A program made the translations under genes and the position numbers. This document shows, piece after piece, positions 486 through 37,691 of a DNA stretch of 40,781 nt. The DNA is from Candidatus Methanophagales archaeon (lineage in GTDB: Archaea > Halobacteriota > Syntropharchaeia > Alkanophagales > Methanospirareceae): assembly GCA_030612835.1 (NCBI GenBank), contig JAUWND010000004.1:1-40781 (forward strand), read 5' to 3'. The first letter of the stretch is position 1, and every line of letters begins with the position of its first letter. The notes under the pieces were generated by a model. That model had not been told where the DNA came from and made no database searches. It saw nothing but the letters and a program-made list of their open reading frames with translations.

Positions 486-931
486 AACCACAGATTACAC
501 AGATTTTCACAGGATTCTTCTTTTCACCTCCAAACTCTTTGTACCAAAGTTTAGTAATAAACCAACACGCATTTTGGTTGCCTTTAGATAATTTAATAAC
601 TGTGCTTCTTCAATTTCTGTTAAGCCCGATGTAGCTTTTATTTCTACTATTACTTTACTATCGACTATTAAATCAGGCTTATATTTTCTTGGGATTAATA
701 AGTCTTTGTAATAAATATCTAGCTCTTTTTGTCTCTCAAAATGGACCTTTTTCAAATTCAGCTCGTAACTTAACGCTTCTTCATAAACATATTCTAGGAA
801 ACCCGAGCCTAACTTGCGGTGAACTTCCATCGCTGCACCGATAATCTCTTGAGTTAGGTCCTTATAAAGCCACTTCCCCTTAGTATCACGCAGTTCCCCC
901 TTCTGTGTTAATCTCGTGTAATCTTGTGGTT
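486..931 (-). mobile_element. GxxExxY cassette with imperfect terminal inverted repeats, inserted between cbiL and cbiF
   Basis: Left end AACCACAGATTACACAGATTTTCACAGGATT (486-516); right end TGTGTTAATCTCGTGTAATCTTGTGGTT (904-931), whose reverse complement AACCACAAGATTACACGAGATTAACACA matches the left end. The same ends occur at other loci in the window. Confidence 0.65.
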
Positions 932-1616
932 CCGTATCTATCGCCTTTTTTACGATAAGTGTGGAAAGATAGTGACGTGGTTCTTCTATCTCACTAACTT
1001 TTCCTGATATTAATTTTTGGTCCTCAAACCCGACCTTAACACATAGGATAGCCTTTTCACTGCCCAGTATATCCTCGATTTTATCCAGATCCTTTGGTTT
1101 GAGGAATATCAAAGAATCTGAGCTCTCTATTACTTGCATTGCGTTTTTTGCTTTTACGTCCGGAATAATAGAAACAATCTCCGTTCCTTCCACTAAGGGA
1201 ACCTGCGCAGTAGATGTGCAAGCTGAGAATGATGTCACGCCGGGAATTACTTCTACTTCCTCTACCAGGTCGTTGAAAACCTCTAAGAATCGGTAGAATG
1301 TGGAATACATGCTCGGGTCGCCCAGGGTGATGAATGCGGCAGTTTCACAGCTATTTCCTTTTGCCAATACCTCTTCTCGCGCCTTTTTCCAATACTGTTT
1401 TAGCTTAGCTCGGTCTTTCGTCATTGGGAATACAGGTTCAACCACAATACAATCCCGCTCTTTTATTACTTCTTCAACCGTGTGGAGCGCTCGACTCCGT
1501 TTAGCCTCGCTCGACCTCGGCGCTATTATCATATCCACGCCCTTGAGTATCTTATATGCTTTCAATGTGAGCAGTTCCGGGTCGCCTGGACCCACACCTA
1601 TTCCATATAGTTTCAT
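507..1616 (-). CDS. cbiL: Precorrin-2 C20-methyltransferase (CbiL) fused at its C-terminus to a GxxExxY / PD-(D/E)XK-type domain
   Basis: N-term MKLYGIGVGPGDPELLTLKAYKILK..HYLSTLIVKKA is CbiL-like; C-term LTQEIIGAAMEVHRKLGSGFLEYVYEEAL...KPDLIVDSKVIVEIKAT...LLNYLKAT..VGLLLNFG matches the GxxExxY family. Confidence 0.85.
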   Translation of the reverse strand: MKLYGIGVGPGDPELLTLKAYKILKGVDMIIAPRSSEAKRSRALHTVEEVIKERDCIVVEPVFPMTKDRAKLKQYWKKAREEVLAKGNSCETAAFITLGDPSMYSTFYRFLEVFNDLVEEVEVIPGVTSFSACTSTAQVPLVEGTEIVSIIPDVKAKNAMQVIESSDSLIFLKPKDLDKIEDILGSEKAILCVKVGFEDQKLISGKVSEIEEPRHYLSTLIVKKAIDTEPQDYTRLTQKGELRDTKGKWLYKDLTQEIIGAAMEVHRKLGSGFLEYVYEEALSYELNLKKVHFERQKELDIYYKDLLIPRKYKPDLIVDSKVIVEIKATSGLTEIEEAQLLNYLKATKMRVGLLLNFGTKSLEVKRRIL

Positions 1617-28395: not shown

Positions 28396-28492
28396 TCTTA
28401 AATACGCAATGTAGGTAGCTAAGAGCTTTTAATTATTTTATAAAAGTACGCTAAAATAAAAAATCATTTGTATTTGTATAGCGAATCTAAAA

Positions 28493-28556
28493 AACCACGA
28501 GATTCCACAAGATTAACACAAGAAATCTCGTGAAAATCTGTGTAATCTTGTGGTTT
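28493..28556. repeat. 64-bp palindromic GxxExxY-type terminal-repeat pair without ORF
   Basis: AACCACGAGATTCCACAAGATTAACACAAG ... CTCGTGAAAATCTGTGTAATCTTGTGGTT. Confidence 0.8.
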
Positions 28557-28616
28557 GCTAAACAAATACATTTATTCTTATAAAAAAATGTATATATATC
28601 CTTGGTTGTGAGAGAG

Positions 28617-37552: not shown

Positions 37553-37691
37553 AACCACGAGATTACACAAGATTAACACAAACCTTTTTGCAAGCAAAAA
37601 GCTTTACCAAAAAACCTATTTGTTTTTCTTTTAGCACAGGCTAAATTTTCTTTTTGTAAAAAAGAAAAAGTGTTGTGTAATCTTGTGGTTT
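37553..37691. repeat. MITE-like element with GxxExxY-type ends containing the 54-bp hairpin repeat
   Basis: AACCACGAGATTACACAAGATTAACACAAAC ... TGTGTAATCTTGTGGTTT; internal CTTTTTGCAAGCAAAAAG palindrome and the 2313-2366 repeat. Confidence 0.8.

Follow-up and report, generated by a model that had tools for sequence, protein, structure and literature searches.

A transposon-like GxxExxY element at the cbiL-cbiF junction of Methanophagales, probably expressed as a C-terminal extension of CbiL

Results

A GxxExxY domain in frame with CbiL

The window, i.e. the whole 40,781-nucleotide stretch analysed here, corresponds to contig C143 of a Methanophagales (ANME-1) MAG whose genome is 86% complete, and in it the cbiL frame runs on for 145 codons past the usual CbiL terminus (LIVKK) into a complete GxxExxY domain. 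We read this, with a probability of roughly 0.7, as a mobile GxxExxY element lodged at the cbiL-cbiF overlap, whose nuclease would be translated as the C-terminal domain of CbiL and which has been kept vertically in the window's genome (G000) and in G004, while decaying in sister lineages.

The genes concerned lie on the minus strand in the order cbiT, cbiL, cbiF. The cbiT gene (1613–2227) shares a 4-nt ATGA overlap with the start of cbiL, and from there a single ORF of 369 amino acids, 1616–507, continues without internal stops. Its CbiL part (precorrin-2 / cobalt-factor II C20-methyltransferase; 945–1616, minus strand; PDB relatives 2qbu and 8xj3) passes the TIGR01467 CobI/CbiL model with 205.5 bits (cut-off 163.25), residues 1–224 covering model positions 1–230 of 230, and ends at LIVKK, the usual place, as the original prediction had it. 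The GxxExxY (PDDEXK_3) half (residues 253–367; 516–860, minus strand) passes TIGR04256 with 148.9 bits (cut-off 35), covering model positions 1–115 of 116, and matches PF13366 PDDEXK_3 over residues 252–366 with 140 bits (cut-off 22). In the fusion frame the joining stretch between the two includes LIVKKAIDTEPQDYTR. The original proposal of a CbiL-GxxExxY fusion by insertion between cbiL and cbiF is thus borne out by an open single frame with both domains complete. Of the span it gave, 486–1616, the element proper covers 486–931 alone.

Terminal inverted repeats of the element

The inserted element (446 bp, minus strand) is bounded by imperfect inverted repeats of 27–29 nt with the pattern AACCAC-AGATTACAC-AGATT..CACAG. 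End-to-end alignment places the cbiL-side repeat, AACCACAAGATTACACGAGATTAACACAG, at 903–931 (minus strand) and the cbiF-side repeat, AACCACAGATTACACAGATTTTCACAGG, at 486–513 (plus strand), with an inverted-repeat alignment score of 19, which was also attained in 2 out of 2000 randomly chosen pairs of windows. The linker of the fusion (..EPQDYTRLTQKGEL..) is the translated terminal repeat, as had been anticipated: the cbiL-side repeat is read ..PQDYTRLTQ.. in frame. The TGA stop of the fusion (507–509, minus strand) falls within the cbiF-side repeat, again as foreseen. Past it, cbiF (precorrin-4 C11-methyltransferase, TIGR01465; 2–481, minus strand, running past the window edge) probably starts at base 475 (ATGAAA, conserved among relatives), with an in-frame ATG upstream at 481; the predicted distance of 11 nt from the element to cbiF is correct for the conserved start.

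Between the terminal repeats we find the GxxExxY frame alone and no recognised transposase of the element's own, and we class the element as transposon-like, outside known IS families. No target-site duplication is visible at cbiL-cbiF or at a second site described below (site P), the flanks having diverged there, and the repeat string CACAGATTACACAGATT was not found in the open-access literature searched. Elsewhere in the window, these terminal repeats form a 63-bp palindromic copy without a gene at 28493–28555, enclosed by an outer inverted repeat GTATTTGTATAGC...CTAAACAAATAC (28470–28569), a nesting that recurs many times genome-wide. The stretch 37553–37690 is a MITE that lacks a gene, shares these ends and contains an internal repeat, CTTTTAGCACAGGCTAAATTTTCTTTTT, which is also found solitary at 2320–2347, upstream of cbiT.

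Bare, occupied and decayed junctions in relatives

We compared the cbiL-cbiF junction base by base in about twenty related genomes, in which the window and G004 are labelled g1, G019 and G028 g5, and G011, G022 and G030 g8. The junction is bare in G010, G017 and G025, where CbiL ends KKEE.. and overlaps cbiF by 4 nt (ATGA), confirming the expected empty sites; the CbiL end of G007 is similarly short. The intact fusion is present in four genomes, namely the window's, G004 (locus L001), G019 (L002) and G028 (L003). In none of these four does a missed stop separate the two parts, and their linkers of 23–27 residues are in frame throughout, with lengths that vary by whole codons. Other relatives carry remnants. 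The CbiL tail of G002 consists of the final 12 codons of the domain, KKGTKSLEVKRRIL and a stop, and G023 is alike. In the three g8 genomes only the cbiL-side repeat is left, read ..EPRDYTRL or ..EPQDYTRL up to a stop, and the ATGA overlap with cbiF is re-formed. The cbiL-site copy of G024 has an internal deletion, and L008, G016, G032 and G070 have gene-less or nested copies at the junction; in G032, the CbiL frame crosses an entire gene-less copy and reaches the cbiF ATGA.

This mixture of bare, occupied and decayed junctions identifies the feature as an insertion, neither an old part of CbiL nor an assembly error. An assembly artefact was rejected on the same fusion in three other MAGs, and an ancient CbiL domain on the bare junctions and remnants of close relatives. 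Among 298 archaeal genomes, 35 contain 72 strong GxxExxY matches, and since frames longer than 240 residues are limited to the four cbiL fusions, the fusion is rare.

Predicted fold and active site

The GxxExxY domain gives a structure model with a pLDDT of 96.4. Its top Foldseek matches in the PDB are Cas4 SSO0001, RecE, LHK-Exo, lambda exonuclease and MGME1, the first six having probabilities of 0.96–1.00, yet E-values of 1e-3 to 5e-2. By this model, the domain is a predicted nuclease with a PD-(D/E)XK fold of the Cas4/RecE/lambda-exonuclease kind. The model of the full fusion was left unused (pLDDT 66 overall, with the CbiL half and linker poor and a shallow alignment), and weak HhaI methylase matches, the sole hits of the GxxExxY part in the PDB sequence search, at E 0.14 or more, were taken as chance.

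The PD-(D/E)XK-like motif, proposed earlier to be intact, indeed has all its residues, with activity predicted from them: the D of KPDLIV, the E and K of EIKAT, the Q of AQLLNYL, and the E and Y of GxxExxY. In 27 relatives, whose loci were partly found via the NYLKATKM motif, these residues are invariant, save the E of EIK (over 90%), and the window's motifs GSGFLEYVY, KPD..EIK and Q..NYLKATKM fall in invariant or >90% columns of these 27 sequences. The fold result agrees with a published case in which a domain annotated as GxxExxY by one pipeline was called as cas4 by a different tool (PMC8934634). The likeness to these nucleases lies in the predicted fold and the E-D-ExK-Q..Y residues, but the GxxExxY domain is much shorter, and the Foldseek E-values are those given above.

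Loss of the native start and selection on the fused domain

In the eight listed stand-alone copies that have a complete N-terminus, an ATG stands at position -6 (8/8). This native ATG is gone in three of the four fusions: G000 and G004 have CTG, and G028 has no start there. In the window the CTG (Leu242; 891–893, minus strand) aligns with the ATG of the stand-alone copies, so that the earlier suggestion of a leucine at the site of a native methionine stands.

We compared substitutions in the GxxExxY gene (gx) with those in host genes. Between G000 and G004 the synonymous divergence of gx is 0.14 and that of host genes 0.17 (p 0.61); this equality implies that the domain was already in place in their common ancestor. 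Its changes since then comprise 11 synonymous and 2 non-synonymous substitutions (p 1.6e-6), and on these counts the G000/G004 copy is vertically inherited and under strong purifying selection. For the G019-G028 fusion pair, purifying selection is marginal (p 0.01–0.06). That the frame is open by chance in a passenger decaying like its sisters would suit the decay in most lineages at this junction, but seems very improbable, given such a substitution pattern in a domain with an ordinary start in neither G000 nor G004.

Because the G000/G004 copy is under selection without the element's ATG, the simplest candidate for what is selected is the CbiL fusion. Alternatively, GxxExxY could be translated alone from the CTG at 891–893, the joined frame being little used or incidental. 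The CTG is preceded by GGGGGAA and is a conceivable weak independent start: a purine-rich, Shine-Dalgarno-like run (GGGGG) stands immediately before it (AGAAGGGGGAACTG), and G019 retains an ATG at this position. Yet CTG starts are rare and weak, G028 is without any start there, and four genomes have no stop between the frames and linkers that vary by whole codons, which together make a separate product distinctly unlikely. The proposal that the domain is translated by hitch-hiking on cbiL is supported by the loss of the native ATG in three of the four fusions, the frame-keeping linkers and the purifying selection without an ATG, and the probable product is CbiL with the domain as its tail.

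A further question is whether the domain is kept for the sake of CbiL, as a functional part contributing binding, stability or regulation. Such domestication is favoured by the vertical descent of the copy at the junction in G000 and G004, by the strong purifying selection on it there, and by a fusion that probably arose twice. However, G002, G011, G022 and G030, of the same or the next genus, dropped the domain and kept a short tail; all nuclease residues are retained as in the stand-alone copies; and dN/dS is similarly low in the stand-alone copies. We regard domestication as unlikely, and prefer a nuclease that would be made with CbiL and need not serve it.

Mobility of the element family

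At least 109 repeat ends occur in the window's genome, where a reversed-pattern control gave 0; across the family, 42 of the 51 genomes contain repeat ends and none the reversed pattern. Genomes with an intact type-A gene tend to have more repeat ends (medians 31.5 and 4; Mann-Whitney p 6e-4, relatedness uncorrected). We dropped a tight tie between the two, since G067 and G069, with about 100 ends and gene fragments only, contradict it. The window's genome has one other type-A copy, on contig C199 (L045, L111), with a poly-T frameshift near the start and two tandem left ends. This copy being frameshifted, a single intact type-A copy was found in the 86% complete genome, namely the one fused to CbiL.

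Divergence of the gene is at odds with that of its hosts. Between g5 and g12/g13, gx has a synonymous divergence of 0.26–0.32, host cbiL/cbiF of about 0.67–0.70 (p 1e-8 to 1e-10); the window and G002 show the reverse pattern (gx 0.60, host 0.21). This mismatch implies that copies moved between lineages, and, judged by synonymous divergence, gx copies in other genera are younger than the split of their hosts. An internal deletion with the junction YVYE/LLNFG is shared by G016 (at two sites), G070, site P of G010 and the cbiL site of G024, and a clear microhomology was not found at its ends; in a second GxxExxY type a deletion of its own, IEL/NFGTKPEVKR, recurs at about ten loci. Such deletion derivatives with shared breakpoints at unrelated sites indicate mobility.

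Each GxxExxY type in these genomes is flanked by its own kind of short inverted repeats. Further ANME-1 types (L043, L079, L080, L083–L085, L088 and L138; L094 and L141–L144) have different terminal repeats, TTTACCGC.GAG.. and GGACGCAGAT..AACGCAGAT.., and in many of their copies the start codon lies within or right behind the repeat.

A comparable junction is site P, the ATGA junction between two MinD-like iron-sulphur ATPase genes (loci L150–L179, including L166 and L170). It is empty in G068, G022, G030, G066, G006 and others, holds the gene in G023 and G070, and holds remnants or gene-less copies in G000, G004, G010, G001, G003, G005 and G018. Site P shows the same occupied/empty/remnant pattern as cbiL-cbiF, the element family occupying it in several genera and others having a bare ATGA overlap. 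At a further site, site B, G024 has a single-repeat footprint.

The history of the cbiL-cbiF junction itself allows a variant compatible with our main reading, in which one ancestral Methanophagales insertion was inherited by both fusion groups. The spacer between KK and the repeat is similar (GATAC / GGTAC) in g1, g5, g8 and g13, and although cbiL copies are ungrouped in gx trees, the AU test does not reject one fusion clade (one-clade constraint p 0.10 for the four fusions, and 0.35). Against it, gx synonymous divergence between g1 and g5 (0.52) is below that of the host (0.76; p 1.6e-4), which favours separate arrivals or a later gene replacement at an occupied site; moreover, g5 copies are nearest to other-site copies in g12 and g13, and the junction is bare in several genera. 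We therefore think a single insertion possible but somewhat doubtful; these comparisons make two or more arrivals at the junction the probable history.

Placement behind co-directional genes

For type-A copies the upstream gene is co-directional in 14 of 14 cases (7 distinct sites) and usually ends within about 45 nt; for all GxxExxY types it is co-directional in 23 of 27 (relatedness uncorrected). Such placement suits elements that rely on upstream transcription. The CbiL fusions would borrow translation as well.

Discussion

Our comparisons suggest the following course of events. A mobile element consisting of inverted repeats of about 27 nt and one GxxExxY gene would have inserted, in Methanophagales, where cbiL and cbiF overlap by ATGA, its family members sitting right behind co-directional genes and presumably depending on upstream transcription. 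The insertion would have taken away the cbiL stop, the open frame of the repeat linking CbiL to GxxExxY, while cbiF would retain its own start just past the other repeat. As the frame, the loss of the start and the selection suggest, the nuclease would be translated as the C-terminal domain of CbiL. In the G000/G004 lineage it would then have been inherited vertically under purifying selection, and in sister lineages, after decay, a few codons of the element would persist as a short extension of CbiL; in g8 the ATGA overlap would have formed anew. Most likely, the nuclease serves the spread of the element, gene-less derivatives included.

Parts of this picture have precedents. The domain belongs to the GxxExxY family (TIGR04256; PF13366), lying far over the cut-off at full length with every family residue in place; here it forms the C-terminal half of a cobalamin-synthesis enzyme. 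Rickettsia palindromic elements, reviewed together with other in-frame MITEs in PMC10969869, resemble it in habit, being palindrome-bounded, in frame in host genes and translated along; they measure about 150 bp and contribute a short peptide, whereas the present insertion brings a whole nuclease-like domain to the 3' end of a gene and sits at an operon junction. With MITEs and other non-autonomous derivatives of TIR transposons the family shares many gene-less copies with the same terminal repeats and common-breakpoint deletions, but its full-length element carries the GxxExxY gene and no known transposase. Curated databases name the GxxExxY family, though no study of its function was found in the open-access literature searched. 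The in-frame habit of Rickettsia palindromic elements and the GxxExxY gene family are known; what is new is their joint occurrence, the location at an operon junction and the evidence that comparison of relatives gives for mobility.

More broadly, and tentatively, GxxExxY proteins could be the mobilising nucleases (Cas4/lambda-exonuclease-like) of widespread, undescribed one-gene inverted-repeat elements, which would insert by preference where operon genes are translationally coupled and would mobilise their deletion derivatives in trans. In ANME-1 they would sometimes be expressed by translational fusion to an upstream host gene, and the hundred or so gene-less copies of the window's genome would then have a single intact type-A source, the copy fused to CbiL.

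The GxxExxY family thereby gains a concrete archaeal context, with inverted-repeat ends, shared-breakpoint derivatives, movement across genera and a place behind co-directional genes. A mobile gene apparently secures its expression by extending the reading frame of a cofactor-pathway enzyme at the 3' end, probably the place of least damage to the enzyme. Element-derived tails stay on the enzyme after decay, a route to new protein tails that, along with the role of the nuclease, is now testable.
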